NCBI RefSeq assembly: GCF_003628535.1
Contig: NZ_RBCI01000001.1
Coordinates: forward strand, 744,001-808,000
Source of the DNA: Flavisolibacter nicotianae
GTDB lineage: Bacteria; Bacteroidota; Bacteroidia; Chitinophagales; Chitinophagaceae
Direction: 5' to 3'
Length of the DNA stretch: 64,000 nt
The translations under genes were made by a program, and so were the position numbers. The notes beneath the pieces are model-generated. The model searched no databases, was not told where the DNA came from, and worked only from the letters and a program-made list of their open reading frames with translations. Positions 10,335 through 43,474 of the stretch are shown in pieces. The first letter of the stretch is position 1, and every line of letters begins with the position of its first letter.

Positions 10335-10342
10335 GGAGGAAT

Positions 10343-10375
10343 AGCGAGTAGTGAGTAGTAAGTAGTGAATAGCCC
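10343..10375. repeat. Left arm of inverted repeat around the four-helix gene (cassette 1)
   Basis: Word-type sequence AGCGAGTAGTGAGTAGTA... Its complement lies at 10793-10829; the best 31-bp alignment has 5 mismatches. The arm itself is made of degenerate GAGTAGT units. Confidence 0.8.
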
Positions 10376-10413: not shown

Positions 10414-10773
10414 ATGTTGGAGTTAAGCCATAAAAAGCTAATTGCCTGGCAAAAGTCTATTGCCTTAATGCCGCTTATTTATCAAATCTGCCAAAAGCTG
10501 CCGAAAGAGGAAACATACAACCTTATTGGACAAATGAAGAGGGCCGGACTTTCCGTTTCAAATAATCTTGCCGAAGGCGCTTCCCGAAAATCAAAAGCTG
10601 AAAAGAACCGCTTTTATGAGGTATCCCGTTCGTCAGTTGTTGAAATTGATAACTGCTTGGTAAATTGCTTGGTGCTGAAATTCATTATGCCTGATGACTT
10701 GAAAGAGATCAACCTTGCTTTACTGGAAGAATTTAAATTGCTCACTGGTCTTATCGACTCTAACAACAAATGA
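10414..10773 (+). CDS. Four-helix bundle protein (23S rRNA intervening-sequence family), cassette 1
   Basis: 119 aa. The family signature is present: HKKLIAWQKSIALMPLIYQI at the start, then LIGQMKRAGLSVSNNLAEGASR and NRFYEVSRSSVVEIDNCLV. These proteins were first described from ORFs inside 23S rRNA intervening sequences; the related bAvd protein belongs to diversity-generating retroelements. No reverse transcriptase or rRNA is present here. The gene lies between the arms of an inverted repeat and points against its neighbours. Codon use looks AT-richer than the flanking genes. Molecular function is not known; the fold is basic and may bind nucleic acid. Confidence 0.85.
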   Translation: MLELSHKKLIAWQKSIALMPLIYQICQKLPKEETYNLIGQMKRAGLSVSNNLAEGASRKSKAEKNRFYEVSRSSVVEIDNCLVNCLVLKFIMPDDLKEINLALLEEFKLLTGLIDSNNK

Positions 10774-10792
10774 GTAAAGGCAGCATTAAATG

Positions 10793-10829
10793 GCTACTCG
10801 CTACTTACCACTCACCACTGGCTACTTCA
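10793..10829. repeat. Right arm of inverted repeat (cassette 1)
   Basis: Complement of the arm at 10343-10375. On the minus strand the arm begins at the TAG stop codon of the CNNM gene (10822-10824), so gene end and repeat overlap. Confidence 0.8.
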
Positions 10830-12078
10830 GCACTTTCATCTTTACCATTTCGATGCGGGTATCGCTGACGCTGAGAATGTCGAATTCGAAATCATCGATG
10901 ATGATGCGCTCTTTCTGCCGGGGAATGGTCTCGTGGTGCGAGATGATAAAACCGGAAAGCGTTTCGGATTCGTTTTCCGGAAAATCGAGGTCGTATTTTT
11001 CGCAGATGTAATCCAGCTCCAGGCGGCCGGAAAAAATGTACTCGTTTTCGGACAGGCGCTTCTCTACAAACTCTTCGCTGTCGTATTCATCCTGGATCTC
11101 GCCAAAGATCTCTTCCAGCACATCTTCCATGGTGACGATGCCGGCCGTGCCGCCAAATTCATCTACCACCCAGGCAATGCTCTTGCGCTCCTTGGTGAAT
11201 TTGCCGATCAGGTCCGTAGCGCTCATGCTCTCGGGCACGGCCGGTATCGGCAGCAGGATGCTTTGCAGGACCGGCGGATTTTTGAACAGGTCCAACTGGT
11301 GCACGTAGCCCACGATGTTGTCGATCGTTTTTTCGTACACCACCAGCTTACTCAGCTTGGTGTCCATGAACTTTTTCCGGGCTTCATCCACCGAGCTGCT
11401 GATGTCCACACCGATGACTTCTTTGCGGGGCACCAGGCACTGACGGATTTTGACCCTGGGCAGTTCCAGCGCATTTTCAAACAGCTCGGTATTCATTTCT
11501 TCCGCTTCAAAATCGACTGCCTCGTTTTGCTGGAACAGTGTTTCCAGCGTGCCGGCCGGCAGGTTATCCTTTGCCTCTTTGATGCGGATGTTGAAAATGT
11601 ATTCCAGCGTCCAGTTGGCCAGGGCCAGAAAAAGGCGGGCAACAGGCAGCAGGATTTGGTAGATGATGTTAATGAACCACACGATGCGTGTGAGGATAAA
11701 GTTGCTGTGTGCACGGAACAGGGCCCGCGGCACAAACTCGCCCAGCACCATTACCACAAAGGTCGATAGTACGATGTTGAGGATGGTACGCAGCCATTCT
11801 TTTTCCAGGTGCAAAAAATCCCAGACCGGGTGGGTCACGGTTTCAAAAAGAAGTGCAAACCATACAAGGGAAAGGGTAAAGCCAATGAGCATCGTGCTCA
11901 GAAACAGCTCGGGATTTTCGAAGTACCGCGACAGCAGCAAGGCATCGGGGCTGCCCTGTTTTTTACGCAGTTCGATGCTGAAGCGGTTCACGCTGTAAAA
12001 CGCCATTTCCACACCGGCAAAAAAACCCATCAGCAACAGGGTTACGATAAACCACACAACAATGTTTACGGCGATCAT
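10822..12078 (-). CDS. CNNM/CorC-HlyC family membrane protein with CBS domains
   Basis: 418 aa. The N-terminal DUF21/CNNM membrane domain (about residues 1-180, four helices, FFAGVEMAFYSVNRFSIELR) is followed by a CBS pair (VPRKEVIGVD... and FTKERKSIAWVVDEFGGTAGIVTMEDVLEEIFGEI) and a C-terminal CorC_HlyC domain. Relatives export magnesium or cobalt, and in gliding Bacteroidota the GldE protein has this layout. Whether this one is GldE-like cannot be told without gld neighbours. It is transcribed after gmk with a possible own promoter at 12084. Confidence 0.9.
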   Translation of the reverse strand: MIAVNIVVWFIVTLLLMGFFAGVEMAFYSVNRFSIELRKKQGSPDALLLSRYFENPELFLSTMLIGFTLSLVWFALLFETVTHPVWDFLHLEKEWLRTILNIVLSTFVVMVLGEFVPRALFRAHSNFILTRIVWFINIIYQILLPVARLFLALANWTLEYIFNIRIKEAKDNLPAGTLETLFQQNEAVDFEAEEMNTELFENALELPRVKIRQCLVPRKEVIGVDISSSVDEARKKFMDTKLSKLVVYEKTIDNIVGYVHQLDLFKNPPVLQSILLPIPAVPESMSATDLIGKFTKERKSIAWVVDEFGGTAGIVTMEDVLEEIFGEIQDEYDSEEFVEKRLSENEYIFSGRLELDYICEKYDLDFPENESETLSGFIISHHETIPRQKERIIIDDFEFDILSVSDTRIEMVKMKVLK

Positions 12079-17128: not shown

Positions 17129-17821
17129 CTACTTAAACCTTTTTTTCCCACCATGACGGTTGCGGTCGTTGCGCTGGCTGCCGCCACCGCTGCCGTTGCT
17201 GCCGCCGCGCTGCTGGAACTTACCACGCTGCTGCTGGCGTCCGTAACCGCTGCCACGTTCGCCCCAGCCTTCCTGCTGCGGACGGTAGGCTTTGACATAC
17301 GGCGTGTTGGTAAATTCCAACTGCCCCTTGGTGATGGAATTCAATTCGCTTTGAATGGCATCGTCGTGCACGGTGTCTTTGTGCCAGTTGTTGTAGGCGA
17401 GCTTCATATAATAGGCAATCGCATTGGCGAAGCCCTGGCGCTTATCGGGGTTTTCTTCTTTCAGTGCTTTGTCGATCACCAGCTCGAGGTTCTTACCCAG
17501 GTGCGAAAACCGGGGATAGCGCTTCGGGTAAGGCAGGGGATCGGGCTTGGCCTTGTAGGTTTCTTTTTGGGGAATGGGATAGGGCGAATCCACATCCAGC
17601 TTAAAGTCGGAGATATAAAAAAGATGGTCCCACAGCTTGTGCCGGAAGTCTTCCACGTTTTTCAGGTGCGGGTTCAAAAAACCCATCAGCTCAATGACGG
17701 CCATGGCATTGGCCTGGCGGCGGTCGCGGTCTTCAATGGTCAGAAGATGCTCCACCATTTTTTGTATATGACGACCATACTCCCGCATGGTCAGGTAATT
17801 CCTTGTTGTATTGTATTCCAT
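17129..17821 (-). CDS. DUF4290 protein with RGG-like tail
   Basis: 230 aa. The N-terminal 170 residues match the Bacteroidota DUF4290 pattern, starting MEYNTTRNYLTMREYGRHIQKM and containing ELMGFLNPHLKNVEDFRHKLWDHL. The last 50 residues are almost only Gly, Arg, Gln, Ser and Asn, like eukaryotic RGG boxes or bacterial RNA-binding tails. Function is unknown. The tail suggests contact with RNA, but this is inference. A perfect -7 box lies only 5 nt before the ATG. Confidence 0.88.
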   Translation of the reverse strand: MEYNTTRNYLTMREYGRHIQKMVEHLLTIEDRDRRQANAMAVIELMGFLNPHLKNVEDFRHKLWDHLFYISDFKLDVDSPYPIPQKETYKAKPDPLPYPKRYPRFSHLGKNLELVIDKALKEENPDKRQGFANAIAYYMKLAYNNWHKDTVHDDAIQSELNSITKGQLEFTNTPYVKAYRPQQEGWGERGSGYGRQQQRGKFQQRGGSNGSGGGSQRNDRNRHGGKKRFK

Positions 17822-17826
17822 CAAAG

Positions 17827-17834
17827 CAAATGTA
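17827..17834 (-). promoter_or_regulatory. -7 box of the DUF4290 gene
   Basis: TACATTTG on the minus strand with TTG 17 nt further upstream. Transcription would start at or next to the ATG, suggesting a leaderless mRNA. Confidence 0.55.
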
Positions 17835-17972
17835 GGGAAGTGGCGGCTTTTCAACCGCAAAATTCAAAAGTTAAAAAAGGGCTCCCGGCCCGCAGTTGCA
17901 GCGTTTATCGTTCCGAAATGCCGGCACGAACAGGTTCTTTCTGTTATTTTTACCGCCCTTATTTGTACTTGT

Positions 17973-19733
17973 ATGAAATACGGCGCACTCGTTTTGCTCT
18001 TCGTTGTTTTGATCGCCTGCAATACCGTTCCGGGAAAGGAAACACCGCAGGCAGATACCTCTTCTGACCTTGCGGCTTTCTTCGACCGCTACTGGAAGGA
18101 ACGCCTGCCGCTCTTCCCGCTGGAGGCCACGGCTACCGGCGACACCACTTACAACGACCGGCTGGCGATTGCGTTTACCGATTCGTTCCGGGACACACTG
18201 CGCCGTTTTTACACCACCTATCTGACGGGCATCCGGCAATTCAGGCGGGACGACCTGAACGAAAATGACCGCATCAGCTACGACATTTTCAAACGCGAAA
18301 TGGAGATGCAGCTCGAAGGCCTGACATTTCACGACAACGAAATTCCCTTTAACCAGTTTTGGGGCCTTCCGCTGGATTTGGGCCAGTTGGGTTCGGGTAC
18401 CGGCAACCAACCGTTCAAAACGGAAAAAGATTACCAGGCCTGGATGCAGCGAGCCGGCCGCTTTTCGGCCTGGGCCGACAGTGCAATTGTTTACTTCCGC
18501 AAAGGCGTGGCGTCGGGCAGGGTGCTGCCCAGGGCATTGGTGATAAAAATGATCCCGCAGATGCAGGCGCTGGCAAAAAACGATCCGTCGAATGTGTTTT
18601 ATGGTCCCCTGAAGAACATGCCTTCGCTGGCAAATGCCGACAGCCTTAAAAAGCAGTTGACAGTGCTGGTGCAAACCGCGGTGCTGCCCGCTTACCAGCG
18701 CCTGGGTCATTTCCTGCAGACAGACTATTTGCCAAAGGCAAGAACCACCACCGGCATCAATGCGATTCCGCAGGGCAGTGAACTGTACGCCTACCTTGTG
18801 CGCCAGTGGACCACCACCAGCAAAACACCGGACGAAATTTACAACACGGGCCTGGCCGAAGTAAAGCGTATCCGCGCCGAGATGGAACGGATCAAGGACA
18901 GTGTCGGCTTTAAAGGTGACCTGCCGGCTTTCTTTGCCTACATGAAAAATGACCAGCGCTTTATGCCCTACAAAACCCCGGAGGATGTGCTGAATGCATT
19001 TCGGTCGATTCACCAGCGCATGGAGCCCAACCTGAAAAAGATGTTTGGCCGCACACCGAAAACGCCGTTCGAGATCCGCCAGACGGAAGCCTTCCGCGCC
19101 GCATCGGCCAGTGCCGAGTACCAGCAAGGCACACCCGACGGAAAGCGTCCCGGCATTTTCTACGTACCCATCCTGGATGCCACGAAGTTCAATACGACGT
19201 CCGGAATGGAAAGCCTTTTCCTGCACGAGGCCATCCCGGGTCATCACTACCAAACTTCGTTGCAGCAAGAGAATGAAAGCCTACCGAAATTTCGCCGCTT
19301 TGCCTGGTACGGCGCCATGGGTGAAGGCTGGGCGCTCTATTGCGAGTCGCTGGGGAAAGAGCTGGGTCTTTACACCGATCCCTATCAATACATGGGTGCA
19401 CTGGGCGATGAAATCCATCGTGCCATTCGCCTGGTGGTGGATGTGGGCATGCACACCAAAGGCATGACCCGCGAAGAAGCCATCAACTACATGACCGACA
19501 ATGAAGCCATCAACACCGAAGGCGCCACAGCCGAAATTGAGCGCTACATGGCCATCCCGGGACAGGCGCTTTCGTACAAGGTGGGGGCACTAAAAATCCG
19601 AGAACTGCGAAACAAATACCAGCAACAGTCGGGCAACAAATTCAGTCTTTCGGCTTTCCACGACGAGATCCTGAAAGATGGCGTGATGCCGCTCGACGTT
19701 TTGGAAAGGAAGATGGATGCGTGGGCGAAATGA
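17973..19733 (+). CDS. DUF885 family lipoprotein (putative zinc peptidase)
   Basis: 586 aa. Lipobox LLFVVLIAC near residue 16 predicts attachment to a lipid anchor, probably in the outer membrane. The motif HEAIPGHHYQ (about residue 417) with GEGWALYCESLG about 30 residues later is the metal-site signature of DUF885 proteins, which resemble thermolysin-like carboxypeptidases. The start at MKYGALV was chosen because the lipobox follows it. The stop codon TGA is also the first three bases of the inverted-repeat arm at 19731. Confidence 0.9.
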   Translation: MKYGALVLLFVVLIACNTVPGKETPQADTSSDLAAFFDRYWKERLPLFPLEATATGDTTYNDRLAIAFTDSFRDTLRRFYTTYLTGIRQFRRDDLNENDRISYDIFKREMEMQLEGLTFHDNEIPFNQFWGLPLDLGQLGSGTGNQPFKTEKDYQAWMQRAGRFSAWADSAIVYFRKGVASGRVLPRALVIKMIPQMQALAKNDPSNVFYGPLKNMPSLANADSLKKQLTVLVQTAVLPAYQRLGHFLQTDYLPKARTTTGINAIPQGSELYAYLVRQWTTTSKTPDEIYNTGLAEVKRIRAEMERIKDSVGFKGDLPAFFAYMKNDQRFMPYKTPEDVLNAFRSIHQRMEPNLKKMFGRTPKTPFEIRQTEAFRAASASAEYQQGTPDGKRPGIFYVPILDATKFNTTSGMESLFLHEAIPGHHYQTSLQQENESLPKFRRFAWYGAMGEGWALYCESLGKELGLYTDPYQYMGALGDEIHRAIRLVVDVGMHTKGMTREEAINYMTDNEAINTEGATAEIERYMAIPGQALSYKVGALKIRELRNKYQQQSGNKFSLSAFHDEILKDGVMPLDVLERKMDAWAK

Positions 19734-19767
19734 GTTTGGAGTCTGGGGTTTGGAGTTTGGGGTTGTT
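19731..19767. repeat. Left arm of 37-bp inverted repeat (cassette 2)
   Basis: Word-type arm TGAGTTTGGAGTCTGGGG... ending GGGGTTGTT. It matches the complement of 20198-20234 at 36 of 37 positions. It starts exactly on the stop codon of the DUF885 gene. Confidence 0.95.
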
Positions 19768-19773
19768 CAGGGG

Positions 19774-20172
19774 CTAGTTTCTTTCTTTGAACTTTTGTCC
19801 TCTGATGTTTGAAAAGTTGAGGTAGTTAATAAAGGCACCGATCTTTTTGACAAGCAAATCGGCATCGGCATAGAGTTCGCTGAAAAGGGCTGCTGAGAAA
19901 TAGTGTATGTCCAGTCCTCTGTGCAACTGCGATTTCAACTCTTCTGCTTCTCCCTTTGCAGTGGTTAAGGAATGCACGAATTCATGCTTGCTTCCGCGAC
20001 TGAAGCCTTCGGCGATGTTGTCCATGATAGCGCCACTGGTGCCTCTTATCTGATCTTTATAGCGAAAGTCTTTAGCAATTGGCTCTTCAAACGTCAGCGG
20101 ATAAATTTTCCGGCAAAGCTGCCTTGCTAACTGCCAAATCTCCAACTCTTCAAATTGATGAACGGTTGCCAT
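19774..20172 (-). CDS. Four-helix bundle protein (23S rRNA intervening-sequence family), cassette 2
   Basis: 132 aa from MATVHQFEEL (an ATG two codons earlier is possible). Family signature: LEIWQLARQLCRKIYPL, then KDQIRGTSGAIMDNIAEGFSRGS and EFVHSLTTAKGEAEELKSQL. It shares the NxAEGxSR core with the protein at 10414 but is otherwise diverged, so the two cassettes are not recent copies. The gene fills nearly all of the space between the two arms of a 37-bp inverted repeat, with 6 bp left on one side and 25 bp on the other. Function unknown. Confidence 0.88.
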   Translation of the reverse strand: MATVHQFEELEIWQLARQLCRKIYPLTFEEPIAKDFRYKDQIRGTSGAIMDNIAEGFSRGSKHEFVHSLTTAKGEAEELKSQLHRGLDIHYFSAALFSELYADADLLVKKIGAFINYLNFSNIRGQKFKERN

Positions 20173-20197
20173 ATACAAAGTTTGACTAAACTAAGAT

Positions 20198-20234
20198 AAC
20201 AACCCCAAACTCCAAACCCCAGACTCCCAACTCA
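20198..20234. repeat. Right arm of 37-bp inverted repeat (cassette 2)
   Basis: Complement of 19731-19767 with one mismatch. It ends exactly on the stop codon (TGA on the minus strand, 20232-20234) of the AlkA-like gene. Confidence 0.95.
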
Positions 20235-20828
20235 ACTGTCTTTCCATTGCCACAGGTGCAAACAGGCATAGGTGCGGTAGGGCGACCATTTGGCGGAGAT
20301 TTTTTGCATGGCTGCTTTCAATTCTTTTTTGTTGCTGTCATCCAGCTTGTAGATCTTTTTCATGGCCACCTGGATGCCGTAATCGTCCACGGCAAACACA
20401 TCTTCCCGGCCCAGCGTAAACATCAGCAGCATTTCCACCGTCCACTGGCCCACCCCCTTGATCTGCGTGAGCAGGTCGATGATCTCCTCGTTGCTCATCT
20501 TCTTCAGCTTTTTATCGTTCAGGCCATGGTCGATGCAGAATTGCGCAACGTTCAACACGTATTGTGCCTTGGCGTTGCTCAGGCCAATCCCTCGCAACGT
20601 TTCCAACGGCGTGGCAACGATCTGTTCCGGCGTGGGCTCCTCGCCGCCGTAGAGTTCCAGGAAGCGGTGAAAGATCACTTTGGCAACCTTGGTTGAAAGC
20701 TGCTGGCTCATGATGGAAGCGCAAAGGCGGAGCGGAATGTTTTTGTGTGCGGATAGTGTTAGGGCATCCTGGTCGGCAAGCACTTTTCGCAGGCGGCTAT
20801 CTTTGGAGAGGTGATCGATATACGACAT
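20232..20828 (-). CDS. DNA-3-methyladenine glycosylase, AlkA-like (HhH-GPD)
   Basis: 198 aa. Helix-hairpin-helix IKGVGQWTVEML at 123-134 and the catalytic aspartate in FAVDDYGIQ (D148/D149) define the HhH-GPD fold. Such enzymes cut alkylated bases from DNA to start base excision repair. It is shorter than E. coli AlkA and lacks the N-terminal domain, like many bacterial homologues. A TACCTTCG box (20833-20840) is just upstream. Confidence 0.92.
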   Translation of the reverse strand: MSYIDHLSKDSRLRKVLADQDALTLSAHKNIPLRLCASIMSQQLSTKVAKVIFHRFLELYGGEEPTPEQIVATPLETLRGIGLSNAKAQYVLNVAQFCIDHGLNDKKLKKMSNEEIIDLLTQIKGVGQWTVEMLLMFTLGREDVFAVDDYGIQVAMKKIYKLDDSNKKELKAAMQKISAKWSPYRTYACLHLWQWKDS

Positions 20829-20840: not shown

Positions 20841-20845
20841 GGTAC

Positions 20846-21003
20846 GCGAAACGTCAAACGTGAAATGTGAGACGTGAAAGGGTGCAGTTCACAAGCTCAC
20901 GATTAGGAGGCTGCAAAAACCCGGCGCAACGTGTCGCAGGAGAAACAGCGGTGTAACGTAGCTCCCGGTTCATGTTTGACGTTTGCCGTTTCATGTTTGA
21001 CAT
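20846..21003. repeat. CGTCAAACGTGAAA-type inverted repeat, copy 1
   Basis: Left arm 20846-20880 (GCGAAACGTCAAACGTGAAA...) and right arm 20970-21003, complementary with a few mismatches; both arms are tandem degenerate copies of one 10-15 bp word. About 90 non-coding bp lie between. It fills the divergent space between the AlkA-like gene and mnmD. Confidence 0.8.
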
Positions 21004-22279: not shown

Positions 22280-23773
22280 TTACTGCATGTTCCAGCTGAT
22301 ATTCCCGTCCTTGTCATCCTTCAACTGGATCCCGATTTCGGCCAGCTGGTTGCGGATCTTGTCCGAGGTCGCCCAGTCTTTTTTGGTACGGGCTTCCTTG
22401 CGCAGGTCGATCAGCACTTTCATCACGCCTTTCAGTTTATCTTCTTCCGCAGCGCTTTCGGCCTGCAGGCCCAGGATGTCTTCCACATAGGTTTTCATTT
22501 GGGTTTGCAAAAGCAGCAGCGTTTGGCCCGAAAGCGCATCGGCTTTGATTTGTTTATCCTTGATGGAATTGATGACCGGTACCAGTTCAAACATGTTGGC
22601 CAGCACTTTGGCCGTGTTGAAATCATCGTTGATAAAATCGTCAAACTCGCTGACCAGCTTCACCACTTTCTCGTCCAGTTCCGTGTCGGTACCGGCCGAC
22701 TGGTGATCAAAGGTTGTCTGCTTCAGCCATTCGTAGGCTTCCATCAGCCGCTTCAATCCTTTTTCCGATGCAACGAGGGCTTCGTTGCTGAAATCGACCG
22801 TGCTGCGGTAATGCGTTTGCAGAATGAAAAAGCGAATCGTCATCGGCGAAAAAGCTTTCTCCAACATCGGATGATCGCCGCTGAACATTTCCGTTAGCTT
22901 GATCACGTTGTTGTAGCTCTTGCCCATCTTCTTGCCGTTAATGGTGATCATGTTGTTGTGCATCCAGTAGCGAACCGGCGCGATGTGGTTGCAGATGGTG
23001 CTTTGCGCAATCTCGCTTTCGTGGTGCGGGAACTGCAGGTCCATGCCACCGCCATGAATATCGAACTGTGCACCCAGGTATTTTGTGGCCATCGCCGAGC
23101 ACTCGATGTGCCACCCGGGGAATCCTTCGCCCCAGGGGCTTTTCCACCGCATGATGTGTTCCGGCGGCGCTTCTTTCCAAAGGGCAAAATCGGCTTTGTC
23201 TTTTTTCTCTTCCTGTCCTTCCAGTGCCCGTGTGGTTTCGAGAAGGTCGTCGATAATACGACCACTCAGCTTGCCGTAATCGTGGTTCTCGGCGTATTTC
23301 TTCACATCGAAATACACGCTGCCGCCGGCCACGTACGCATAGCCGGCATCGATCAGTTTTTCGATCATGCCGATCTGCTCCACGATATGGCCCGTTGCCG
23401 TTGGCTCAATGCTGGGCGGCAGGTTGTTGAATTTCTCCATGGCCCAGTGATAGAGGTTGGTGTACTTCTGCACCAGCTCCATGGGCTCCAGTCGTTCGAT
23501 CTGTGCTTTTTTGGAAATTTTATCCTCTGCTTCGCGGCCTTCCTCTTCAAAATGCCCGGCGTCGGTGATGTTACGCACATAGCGAACTTTATAACCAAGG
23601 TGCATCAGGTAGCGATACACCACATCGAACGTAATGTAAGGACGAGCATGACCCAAGTGACTTTCTCCGCTGACCGTCGGACCACACACATACATGCCCA
23701 CGTGCCCCGGTACCAGCGGCTCGAACTCTTCTTTTTCCCTTGAATAAGAATTATAGATTTTCAACTTGCTCAT
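22280..23773 (-). CDS. cysS: Cysteinyl-tRNA synthetase
   Basis: 497 aa, class I synthetase that charges tRNA-Cys. The HIGH-type motif is SHLGH (38-42) and the KMSKS loop is KKMGKS (about 283). Zinc ligands are visible: C30 in YVCGPTV, then the ECS of [13 protein letters not shown] and the HHES of PHHESEIAQ. Full length. The promoter box TACTTTTG lies only 4 nt before the start codon, and a repeat arm begins 1 nt beyond it. Confidence 0.97.
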
Positions 23774-23786: not shown

Positions 23787-23936
23787 GAAACGTCAAACGT
23801 GAAACGTCAAACGTGAGACAGGAGCAGCATACAGGTTTGCCAAATGCGTGAAAGAAAGCCTGTGCAGGCACTTGCCAATATGCTTACAACAGTAAAAAGC
23901 TTCTGCGGTTTCTGGTCTCACGTTTGACGTTTCACC
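23787..23936. repeat. CGTCAAACGTGAAA-type inverted repeat, copy 2
   Basis: Perfect 21-bp arms: 23799-23819 and 23915-23935; the left arm carries the word twice. The right arm contains the stop codon of the EEP gene (23932-23934), the left arm ends 1 nt before the cysS -7 box. The 94-bp centre is non-coding. Confidence 0.92.
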
Positions 23937-25053
23937 TCTTCAGCTCCACATCCGCAACCAGCATGTAGTGGTCGGAAAGGCTTTTGACAATGCGGTTAAA
24001 CTGGTGGATCTTGAAATCCGGGGTGGTAAAAATATAATCGATCCGCAGCGTGGGAGAGATGGCGTCGAAGGTGCGGCCAACGCCAAACCCATGCTCGAGG
24101 AAAACGTCTTTGAACCTGTCGTCCTTCACCGTCGCATAAGCATACGAGTTGGGCACGTCGTTAAAGTCGCCGGTGAGAATGGTGGGATAGGGATCGTTCG
24201 ACACGACCTCCCTGATGATCTCGGCCTGCTCCTTCCGTTTTATCACCGCATTGCGAATTTTCCCGAAAATGCCGCGGGACTTTTGGAGCTCGACTTTTTG
24301 TTTGTCCTTGATGTCTTCGATGGTTTCGTAGTCCTGTTTTTGAAAGCGCAGCGAGGCAAGGTGCGTGGTGTAAACGCGGATGGTATCGCCGTGAAACGCG
24401 ATGTCTGCATGCAACAGGCTCTCTGGGTATTTGTCGCCGGGCAAATTGATCTTACCGCTGTCCACAATCGGGTACCGCGAAAAAATGGCGTTGCCAAACC
24501 ACGACTCGGCGCCATCATCCCGCCAGGCGAAATAAAAATACGGGTAACCGATCTCCTTTATCAGGTGGCTGATGTTGTTGTAATAGACCGTATCGGTGGA
24601 CGTAAAAAATTCCTGCATGCACAACACATCGGCATTCTGCTCTTTGATCTGGTCCATCATTTTCAGCCTTGTCTGACTTCCCTTGTTGTTGTTGCGCTTC
24701 CACTCGACAAACCGGGCCACGTTCCAGTGTGCCACCCGCAACACCGATTTGTCTTTCTGGTAATTGAATTTTTCCGCCACGTGAAAACCAAAGAACACGG
24801 AAATGCTCTTGTAGCCGACAAGCAGGGGCACCAGCGCCAGCAAAATATACCGTGGACGCACCACCAGCCAGAACAGGATAAATGCAATAAGGGTCACCAC
24901 CAGTAAGCCAAAGCCAAGGCCCAGGAGAGAAACAAACCACCACTTGGTCGGGTCGAGACGGGAGGCGAGACAGGCAAGCAGGAAAGCCGCCGACACCAGG
25001 ATGTTCAGGATTAAAAAAACAATTTTCGTTATTCGACGGTAGGTGGCGGCCAT
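23932..25053 (-). CDS. Endonuclease/exonuclease/phosphatase family membrane-anchored protein
   Basis: 373 aa. Three N-terminal membrane helices (about 8-95) precede an EEP catalytic domain with RVAHWNVARF, CMQEFF, GDFNDVPNSYAY and the closing SDHYMLVADVEL. The family uses a metal to cut phosphoesters in nucleic acids, lipids or inositol phosphates. With its membrane anchor the active site probably faces the periplasm, so DNA repair is unlikely. The start at MAATYRRITK was chosen as it begins the first helix. Confidence 0.9.
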   Translation of the reverse strand: MAATYRRITKIVFLILNILVSAAFLLACLASRLDPTKWWFVSLLGLGFGLLVVTLIAFILFWLVVRPRYILLALVPLLVGYKSISVFFGFHVAEKFNYQKDKSVLRVAHWNVARFVEWKRNNNKGSQTRLKMMDQIKEQNADVLCMQEFFTSTDTVYYNNISHLIKEIGYPYFYFAWRDDGAESWFGNAIFSRYPIVDSGKINLPGDKYPESLLHADIAFHGDTIRVYTTHLASLRFQKQDYETIEDIKDKQKVELQKSRGIFGKIRNAVIKRKEQAEIIREVVSNDPYPTILTGDFNDVPNSYAYATVKDDRFKDVFLEHGFGVGRTFDAISPTLRIDYIFTTPDFKIHQFNRIVKSLSDHYMLVADVELKR

Positions 25054-25160
25054 GGCCTTGCAAGATATAAAAAGTCGATTGTGAATGTTCAATGGTCAAT
25101 GAAGAAACCGAAATACTTCACGATCCTTTTGCGTAACGTTGAAATGCCTGTTGTAAGTAC

Positions 25161-35490: not shown

Positions 35491-36759
35491 TTAAATCATC
35501 TCCCCGCCAAAATATCCTTGCAGCACCTGCGGCAGCCGGATGCCATTTTCGTCCTGGTTGTTTTCCAGCAACGAAGCGAGGATCCGGGGCAGGGCCAGCG
35601 AACTTCCGTTGAGGGAGTGTGCCAGTTGTGTTTTACCATTGCCGTCTTTAAAGCGGATCTTCATGCGGTTGGTCTGGAAGGCTTCGAAGTTAGAAACGGA
35701 ACTTACCTCCAGCCATTTATCCTGGGCGGCGCTGTATACTTCAAAGTCGTAGGTCAGGGCAGAGGTAAAGCTCATGTCGCCGCCGCACAGCCGCAGGATG
35801 CGGTAGTGCAGGCCGAGTGATTGAATGAGTTTCTCCACATGGGACACCATTTCTTCCAGTACGTCGTAGCTTTTTTCGGGGTGCACCAATTGCACGACTT
35901 CCACCTTGTCGAACTGGTGTACACGGTTCAGGCCACGAACGTCTTTGCCATAGCTTCCGGCCTCGCGGCGGAAGCAGGGTGTGTAGGCCGTCATTTTAAC
36001 GGGCAGGTCGGCCTCCTTCAAAATTACATCGCGGTAAATATTGGTCACCGGCACTTCGGCTGTCGGGATCAGGTACAGGTTGTCGCCGGTTACGTGGTAC
36101 ATCTGTCCTTCTTTATCGGGTAACTGCCCGGTGCCGTAGGCTGTGGCTTCGTTTACCATGTGCGGTGGCAGGTATTCGGTATAGCCCGCCTGCGTGTTGT
36201 ATTCCAGGAAGTATTGGATCAGGGCCCGCTGCAGTTTGGCACCTTTGCCTTTGTACACCGGGAAGCCGCTGCCAGTGAGTTTGTTGCCCAGTTCAAAATC
36301 AATGAGGTCGAATTTTTTGGCCAGTTCCCAGTGCGGCACGGCGCCGGCGTAGAGTTCAGGCTTACTGCCGCCGGTGCGAACCACTTCATTGTCTTCCGGC
36401 GTTTTTCCCTTGGGCACTTTCACCGACGGAAGATTGGGCAAACGAACCAATAGCTCGTTCAGCTGCTTTTCGGTTGCCTCCAATTCTTCCTGCACGGGAC
36501 CCAACGTCGTTTTCAGGGCCTCGACTTCTTTTTTCTTGCCCTCGGCTTCTTCTTTCTGGCCCCTGGCCATCAGTCCGCCAATTTCTTTGGAGGCCGCATT
36601 GATCTTGCCTTTTGTTTCATCAAACTGAAAGGTCAGTTTCTTGCGGCTGTCGTCCAGGGAAATGATCTGGTCCACCAGCTCCGGCTCCTTGAAATTCTTC
36701 ACTGCCAAACGTTCTTTGACTTCCGTGGGATTGTTGCGCAAAACGGCCAGTTGCAGCAT
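35491..36759 (-). CDS. serS: Seryl-tRNA synthetase
   Basis: 422 aa, class II synthetase charging tRNA-Ser. The N-terminal antiparallel coiled coil (about 30-105) grips the tRNA; motif 2 is CFRREAGSYGKDVRGLNRVHQFDKVE, and motif 3 is SLNGSSLALPRILASLLENNQ. Complete and normal. The gene is enclosed by inverted copies of a composite repeat, ending 5 bp from one and starting about 40 bp from the other. Confidence 0.97.
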   Translation of the reverse strand: MLQLAVLRNNPTEVKERLAVKNFKEPELVDQIISLDDSRKKLTFQFDETKGKINAASKEIGGLMARGQKEEAEGKKKEVEALKTTLGPVQEELEATEKQLNELLVRLPNLPSVKVPKGKTPEDNEVVRTGGSKPELYAGAVPHWELAKKFDLIDFELGNKLTGSGFPVYKGKGAKLQRALIQYFLEYNTQAGYTEYLPPHMVNEATAYGTGQLPDKEGQMYHVTGDNLYLIPTAEVPVTNIYRDVILKEADLPVKMTAYTPCFRREAGSYGKDVRGLNRVHQFDKVEVVQLVHPEKSYDVLEEMVSHVEKLIQSLGLHYRILRLCGGDMSFTSALTYDFEVYSAAQDKWLEVSSVSNFEAFQTNRMKIRFKDGNGKTQLAHSLNGSSLALPRILASLLENNQDENGIRLPQVLQGYFGGEMI

Positions 36760-43285: not shown

Positions 43286-43390
43286 TGCGGAACTACTGTC
43301 TCATGGGAAGGGTGTTATTCAATGACAGATGACGGGTGGCGGCAGGGAACATCACACCAGACCACCATCAAGAAGTCCTGCTGCTTTTGT

Positions 43391-43474
43391 GAGACGTGAA
43401 AAGTGAAACGTGAAAACGCAGTGAACGTCAAACGAAAAGACTCTTCGGTTTAACGTTTGACGTTTCGCGTTTCC
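43391..43474. repeat. CGTCAAACGTGAAA-type inverted repeat, copy 3
   Basis: Left arm 43391-43434 (GAGACGTGAAAAGTGAAACG...) and right arm 43449-43473 whose complement reads GAAACGCGAAACGTCAAACG. Same word as at 20846 and 23787. It sits between convergent genes, not touching either stop. Confidence 0.8.

Follow-up and report, generated by a model that had tools for sequence, protein, structure and literature searches.

A stretch of 64,000 nucleotides of the Flavisolibacter nicotianae genome (contig NZ_RBCI01000001.1, positions 744,001 to 808,000 of the forward strand; hereafter the window) contains a gene of the S23 four-helix-bundle family, the family of the 23S rRNA intervening sequences (IVS), enclosed by two inverted arms composed of short tandem repeats. 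We give an even chance to this feature being an exchangeable S23 cassette which carries its own inverted short-repeat arrays and is a chromosomal relative of the 23S rRNA IVS. Many such cassettes were found in Bacteroidota; species appear to exchange them, and they look like a little-noticed kind of mobile DNA. The cassette of the window measures about 500 bp (Table 1). Its arms, 430 nt apart, are complementary at 36 of 37 positions (pair score of 34, counting +1 per match and -2 per mismatch), and the enclosed protein matched PF05635, 23S_rRNA_IVP (4e-26, 91.7 bits, for a curated cut-off of 33.8), and TIGR02436 (84.7 bits, for a curated cut-off of 24). The two flanking genes converge on the element, and the outer ends of the arms are their TGA stop codons, that of the DUF885 gene on the left and that of the AlkA-like gene on the right. 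The inverted repeat, its start on the stop codons of both neighbours and the membership of the gene in the rRNA IVS family had all been claimed in a first-pass annotation of the window, and the three claims were borne out. Each arm is a tandem array of a degenerate 7-nt unit similar to GTTTGGA; the odd unit GTCTGGG of the left arm has its mirror image in the right one, which gives the arms the appearance of inverted copies rather than of arrays grown separately. The annotation had not anticipated these heptamer units, nor three findings presented below: that the unit is linked to the S23 subfamily, that hairpins exist without S23, and that one lineage of elements is faithful to its slot.

The same architecture recurred at other S23 loci. 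A genus set of 42 loci was gathered from the window's genome and three others of the same genus (G005, G017, and G016). The window's genome presented 17 PF05635 rows, 15 of them above the cut-off, and contributed 13 loci; the four rows left out (C1:832751, two at C1:183167, and C2:159130) were fragments or were broken by stops. From G005, G017, and G016, 12 of 14, 12 of 16, and 5 of 8 PF05635 matches were taken, respectively. Strong inverted arms (score of at least 15) were present at 22 of the 42 loci vs. 3 of 589 control open reading frames (ORFs) from the same stretches (Fisher 4e-26); none of the 239 control ORFs under 700 bp reached this score, and one of the three scoring controls reached 52. 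The arm units varied by locus (GTTGATA, ATGGTGA, AGCTATG, and TTGTTCAC, among others), being mostly of 7 nt and elsewhere of 8 or 9 nt. Across the phylum, S23 matches were obtained in 193 of 247 genomes (above the cut-off in 183). Arm scores of at least 14 were reached at 12 of 30 high-scoring phylum-wide loci, a set which overlaps the 42 genus loci; 73 named loci have an S23 related to that of the window, and 48 of them reached this score. Arms were weak or missing at the remaining loci. The named set kept 80 of 533 loci, one of them labelled as a Planctomycetes bin (L333) and the remainder read as Bacteroidota. In this search for arms around other copies of the family, already suggested in the first-pass annotation, many copies turned out to have them, and not all.

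The location of arms on stop codons was a general rule, as 19 of the 20 stop-facing arm ends of the 22 strong-arm loci were found within 15 nt of the stop, neighbouring genes being simple ORF calls. Eleven of these 20 ends overlapped the gene end (median distance of -2), and start-facing ends had a median distance of 15.5 nt from the start codon (n = 24). Heptamer hairpins without S23 also lay at stops (27 of 43 within 15 nt, the figure for inverted repeats without a period being 25 of 104). This speaks for a different explanation, which we regard as rather improbable, that the heptamer hairpins are host 3'-end signals for termination, stability or processing, with S23 as an RNA- or DNA-binding regulator whose gene lies inside some of them by chance, and exchange occurring by ordinary homologous recombination only.

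The repeat unit followed the S23 subfamily. Among the 100 armed loci of a total of 174 S23 loci, arm similarity climbed with S23 identity (Mantel r of 0.49, with a permutation maximum of 0.13); a composition control with reversed arms accounted for the rise at 40-50% identity, not for that above 50%. GTT was present in the consensus units of 49 of 59 loci of the window's S23 cluster vs. 4 of 27 in clusters 5 and 7; it appeared in one of the two units of cluster 3, and in 9 of 37 overall outside the window's cluster. Some loci entered these data twice (e.g., L073/L121, L087/L110, and L090/L134), which inflates the 0.8-1.0 identity bin and cluster 7. The nearest named relative of the window's S23, from Flavisolibacter longurius (78%), has arms with the window's unit at a different site, flanked by the genes of an outer-membrane protein and a thioredoxin-like protein. 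A link of unit and subfamily that spans genera and slots goes beyond passive carriage, and in this respect stands against hairpins being simply host signals. The element of locus L126 has the unit AATCGgg, related to GGGAATC of Xanthomonas, and its protein matched a Xanthomonas S23 (1e-19); since the S23 of L165, with a different unit (AGGTTCT), matched it as well (1e-20), the tie to the Xanthomonas unit is loose.

Hairpins of the same kind occurred without the gene. The genus sequence scanned amounted to 862 kb and gave 131 inverted repeats, of which 47 had arms with a 7- or 8-nt period. The loop sizes of these 47 were split: 8-178 nt in 28 of the 31 listed S23-less hairpins and 360-464 nt in the 16 with S23. 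One of the three remaining long loops (L101:3617-4043) contained a truncated S23 copy. Evenly spaced stretches of G005 amounting to 400 kb displayed 10 heptamer hairpins with loops of 17-67 nt. At a score of 12, hairpin units matched S23 arms in 7.1% of same-genome pairs and in 1.5% of cross-genome pairs, and the best S23-arm partner was located in the hairpin's own genome in 14 of 28 cases (permutation mean of 6.25; 8 of 5000 permutations). The REPIN/RAYT system (REPtron, PMC8266576) likewise comprises a gene between inverted repeats, related hairpins without the gene, and protein subfamilies matched to the repeat. The likeness extends to these copies without the gene, whose repeats are here too related to those of the S23 arms in their own genome. 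Unlike in that system, the protein has the fold of a four-helix bundle, no HuH domain was found in it, and the arms are arrays of 7-8-nt units instead of palindromes.

Four successive GTT-N4 units exceeded the reversed pattern in only 9 of 18 genus genomes, and not in the window's genome (109 vs. 125); the reversed pattern does not make a clean null, as arrays with a TTG core occur as well. A single heptamer hairpin was found in 300 kb of genomes without S23 (G149, G020, and G022), and S23-rich genomes gave 0 (G045), 1 (G118), 8 (G221), and 0 (G241) per 100 kb each, and 11 in 400 kb (G005). These hairpin counts were heterogeneous and not decisive for a dependence of arrays on S23.

Elements were present, absent or replaced at given slots. 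In the genus, one relative only, G015, was found to have the DUF885-AlkA pair, with no S23 gene between; its gap contained a single GTTTGGA-like arm at the DUF885 stop, and no S23 remnant was found in it (best E of 0.44). This comparison with relatives, which the first-pass annotation had proposed, thus indicated that gene and arms do not always go together. As the window's genus is too diverged for more, slots were compared in a dense genus from a different family of the class, in which gB (PF07929) and ndpA (PF04245) enclose an S23 element. In the 299 genomes searched, 92 listed rows spanned the whole gB-ndpA locus and 4 more matched as two overlapping pieces; 55 of these 96 matches were read and all 55 had S23. 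Among 15 other genomes read, 14 were without S23 and one had a different S23 (36% over 77 residues). The S23-less gaps measured 92-161 bp in 13 of 14, and 12 of the 13 scanned contained a hairpin, heptamer-periodic in 11, so that species without the gene mostly retain a hairpin there, as would be expected of a host signal.

The 50 filled gB-ndpA species, from which the nested loci L218-L221 and also L208 were excluded, presented two main S23 types (29 and 19 species), each with its own unit: GGTTCT appeared 66 times and GGTTCA never in type 1, and 2 and 54 times, respectively, in type 2. S23 distances hardly correlated with those of the flanks (0.06-0.12), whereas flank segments correlated with each other (0.58-0.73). 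Five of the eight nearest pairs with flanks less than 6% apart differed in S23 type, and in three of the differing pairs the flanks were 97% identical and the S23 genes 71-73% identical. Placed on the flank tree, S23 type required 15 changes (shuffled mean of 17.2; 157 of 1000 shuffles as low), that is, no signal. Of the four species with a two-piece match, L221 was read base by base: behind a complete S23 cassette it has the remnant of another S23 and an arm of older date. S23 types 27-29% apart despite such flanks, and this nested remnant, exceed what the passive carriage of a host signal would explain. L218-L220 appeared nested in the same way by match pattern only.

At a second slot, groES-groEL, at least 7 of 150 genomes had S23, with one more (G319) likely, and 22 others read had a gap of 72-135 bp and no S23; the gap of L287 was mis-called. 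With S23-free sites at two slots and arms hugging stops, the unit at gene ends behaved like the selfish-looking one that the first-pass annotation had put forward. By eye, the filled groES-groEL sites L258, L259, and L261 presented extra short-hairpin copies beside S23, and L265 and L266 a solo hairpin with the unit of the filled sites and no S23. Window-related S23 elements with common flanking genes across several named taxa (L289-L292, L294, L295, and L297) shared flanks in 21 of 105 locus pairs, as another long-lived slot.

The two arms of an element changed together. In 51 gB-ndpA elements, the arm match within a species was about 18 at any distance, whereas across species it fell to 9.4, and the observed sum was reached by none of 10000 permutations. 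At 75-80% S23 identity the match was 19.5 within vs. 14.8 across species, and at 85% or more there was no difference. This co-change is partly a matter of one element type being replaced by another. Pairing of arms in a transcript is central to a second alternative, also contained in the first-pass annotation, in which the feature is an RNA-level intervening element like a 23S rRNA IVS: the arms would pair in the transcript, RNase III would cut the stem, and neighbouring messages would be spared or processed. The anatomy of the Coxiella IVS is the same, with a stem around the S23 ORF and heptamers before its start (PMC4990558), and RNA folding of the window element gave a long stem (z of -5.9). 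In contrast, no excess of G-U wobbles was found among arm mismatches, neither in 50 loci (32 wobbles vs. 36 of A-C type) nor in 49 orthologs (34 vs. 63), and thus there was no sign that RNA-level arm pairing is being kept in the sense strand; the few mismatches of S23-less gB-ndpA hairpins leaned to wobble (5 vs. 2). Since the window element lies between convergent genes, it interrupts no message. Action at the RNA level was therefore not borne out, and we consider it quite unlikely.

For the exchangeable cassette, we propose that the S23 ring, a homopentamer in the Xanthomonas campestris relative, would recognise the repeat units of its own arms and hold both of them, probably as a DNA hairpin or cruciform. 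With its arms so held, the cassette could more readily be copied into heptamer hairpins or arrays that lack S23 at gene 3' ends, or change places with them; such hairpins would be both targets and gene-less derivatives of cassettes. Cutting and joining (strand transfer) would be supplied by host recombination or replication, an assignment made because only PF05635 was found in the protein. Several observations weigh against this proposal. Strong arms were absent at 20 of the 42 genus loci, and the small cluster 6, with an 8-nt unit, also has GTT (4 of 4). No heptamer hairpin was found in the 100 kb of either S23-rich genome, G045 or G241. GTTTGGA arrays are still present in G002, which belongs to the genus and gave no S23 match (66 matches to the fourfold GTT-N4 pattern vs. 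45 reversed, the listed places being mostly GTTTGGA or GTTTGAA arrays), and this persistence without S23 also speaks for host signals. No target-site duplication was seen by eye at gB-ndpA and groES-groEL. Flank trees in the dense genus conflicted among themselves (in 12 of 18 and in 9 of 13 supported splits, the figure for S23 against the flanks being 17-18 of 21), which indicates that recombination is general there, as exchange of host signals by homologous recombination would have it; ordinary recombination could thus cause much of the exchange. In addition, the long close matches of the type-2 gB-ndpA element in 150 genomes corresponded to its own slot. This slot fidelity argues against frequent transposition, which was rejected for that one lineage, and moves to new sites must be rare. 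Together with the arrays of the S23-free G002, it leads us to hold the proposed mechanism evenly between belief and doubt.

The S23 protein itself is maintained by purifying selection: median ratios of nonsynonymous to synonymous substitutions (dN/dS) in gB-ndpA orthologs were 0.091 and 0.068, with dS near saturation, and none of 50 orthologs had an internal stop. The AlphaFold model of the window's S23 (mean predicted local distance difference test score of 91.5) has four helices and matched the S23 structures 2GSC and 2RLD. It also resembled, more weakly, the Avd protein 4DWL (template modelling score of 0.69-0.89, Foldseek E of 0.015-0.065, and 13-15% sequence identity) and one chain of the ribonucleoprotein of a diversity-generating retroelement, and its only match in the phage library was a profile match to the PHROG Avd family (0.0024). 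A fold and a profile match of this kind, together with PF00078 reverse transcriptase matches in G005 and G017, would fit a retroelement-like unit, in which S23, as an Avd-like protein, would act together with a reverse transcriptase to copy the RNA of the hairpin into the ends of genes. However, unlike with diversity-generating retroelements, no PF00078 match was found in the window's genome, nor in G016 and G001 (17, 8, and 10 S23 rows, respectively), and the S23-free G002 has one; we hold this option to be very improbable. No S23 match was obtained in the PADLOC defence library, and no domain besides PF05635 was found in the window's S23, including no HuH (Y1) transposase. Terminal repeats common to all copies, as in an insertion sequence or transposon, were rejected as well, since the arms differ from copy to copy, and no transposase was found in the protein besides PF05635.

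Kinship with the 23S rRNA IVS, which the first-pass annotation had pointed out, held for both the S23 family and the terminal inverted repeats. PMC4990558 describes the IVS of Coxiella burnetii as a 428-nt sequence with a 28-bp stem, excised by RNase III, in which a decaying S23 ORF lies within terminal inverted repeats and tandem GACAGAT heptamers, variable in number by strain, are located just upstream of the S23 start. The same text describes the S23 of X. campestris as a homopentameric ring. As in Coxiella, the window's S23 ORF lies within terminal inverted repeats and heptameric repeats are present; unlike there, the arms are longer heptamer arrays and gB-ndpA S23 orthologs are under purifying selection, and unlike the 23S rRNA IVS the element is located between the DUF885 and AlkA-like protein genes and not in a 23S rRNA helix. 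Intergenic heptamers are also described in PMC4692102, with 186 GGGAATC arrays in Xanthomonas (X. campestris), 70 inverted pairs among them, near the ends of upstream ORFs, and in PMC4679880, with TAACTGA repeats in Beggiatoaceae, cyanobacteria, and Bacteroidetes. X. campestris, with its heptamer arrays, encodes the S23 protein 2GSC (XCC0516); the term S23 does not occur in the main text of either article. No literature linking S23 or the rRNA IVS with heptameric intergenic repeats was found, in searches that were read mostly as listings and covered few subscription papers.

A broader idea, tentative and in our estimation improbable, is that S23 and short-repeat hairpins constitute a two-part selfish system without a transposase, in which the ring would read a 7- or 8-nt unit and keep or spread mirrored arrays at the 3' ends of genes, whether accompanied by its own gene or not, the rRNA IVS being one branch. 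If true, this system would explain the heptameric intergenic repeats of Bacteroidota and perhaps those of Xanthomonas. Two S23 structures have been solved and the genes are common in the phylum, yet S23 proteins have no known function according to PMC4990558. A repeat unit that tracks the S23 subfamily gives these proteins a concrete and testable substrate, and the link would join two puzzles, the origin of the rRNA IVS and the heptameric intergenic repeats of unrelated bacteria.

Table 1. Location of the S23 elements, their flanking genes and other short-repeat features in the window.
Feature	Position	Strand	Remarks
Left arm	19731..19767	+	Degenerate heptamer array GTTTGGA GTCTGGG GTTTGGA GTTTGGG; first triplet is the TGA stop of the DUF885 gene
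Right arm	20198..20234	-	Inverted copy of the left arm, 36/37; outer end is the TGA stop of the AlkA-like gene
S23 four-helix-bundle gene (PF05635/TIGR02436)	19774..20172	-	ATG start at 20172; TTG alternative at 20178
Flanking DUF885 gene (PF05960)	17811..19733	+	Stop codon is the opening triplet of the left arm
Flanking HhH-GPD (AlkA-like) gene	20232..20828	-	Right arm terminates on its stop codon
Left arm, second S23 element	10342..10374	+	Unit TAGTGAG
Second S23 gene, another subfamily	10414..10773	+	
Right arm, second S23 element	10792..10824	-	Ends on the stop of ORF 10822-12078 (-)
S23-less heptamer hairpin	23799..23935	.	Arms 21/21 (GTGAAACGTCAAACGTGAGAC), loop of 95 nt
ACGTGAA-type heptamer array	20844..20879	.	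Beyond the AlkA-like gene, on its start side

The other S23 element in Table 1 had the architecture of the first, with TAGTGAG as unit instead and its right arm on the TGA of a neighbour. The S23-less hairpin, in which no S23 signal was found, has on one side a class I tRNA-synthetase gene (22280-23773, -), whose start faces it, and on the other an Exo_endo_phos gene (23932-25092, -), whose stop its outer end overlaps. The ACGTGAA-type array gave no S23 signal either; by eye only, it faces an inverted array at about 20970-21000, with no gene recognised between. A tandem GTGAAACGTGAAAA array at 43389-43416 belongs to a unit family common to other S23-less arrays of the window's genome. ORF 35491-36759 (422 aa) is surrounded by a strong, non-heptameric inverted repeat (score of 52, beginning AAGCCTCCACCAAAATGACTGATGGAGGC). 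Elsewhere in the same genome, long direct GTTTGGA arrays were located at C1:993542-993656, C13:703311-703383, and C64:124-238, which suggests that arrays can expand.

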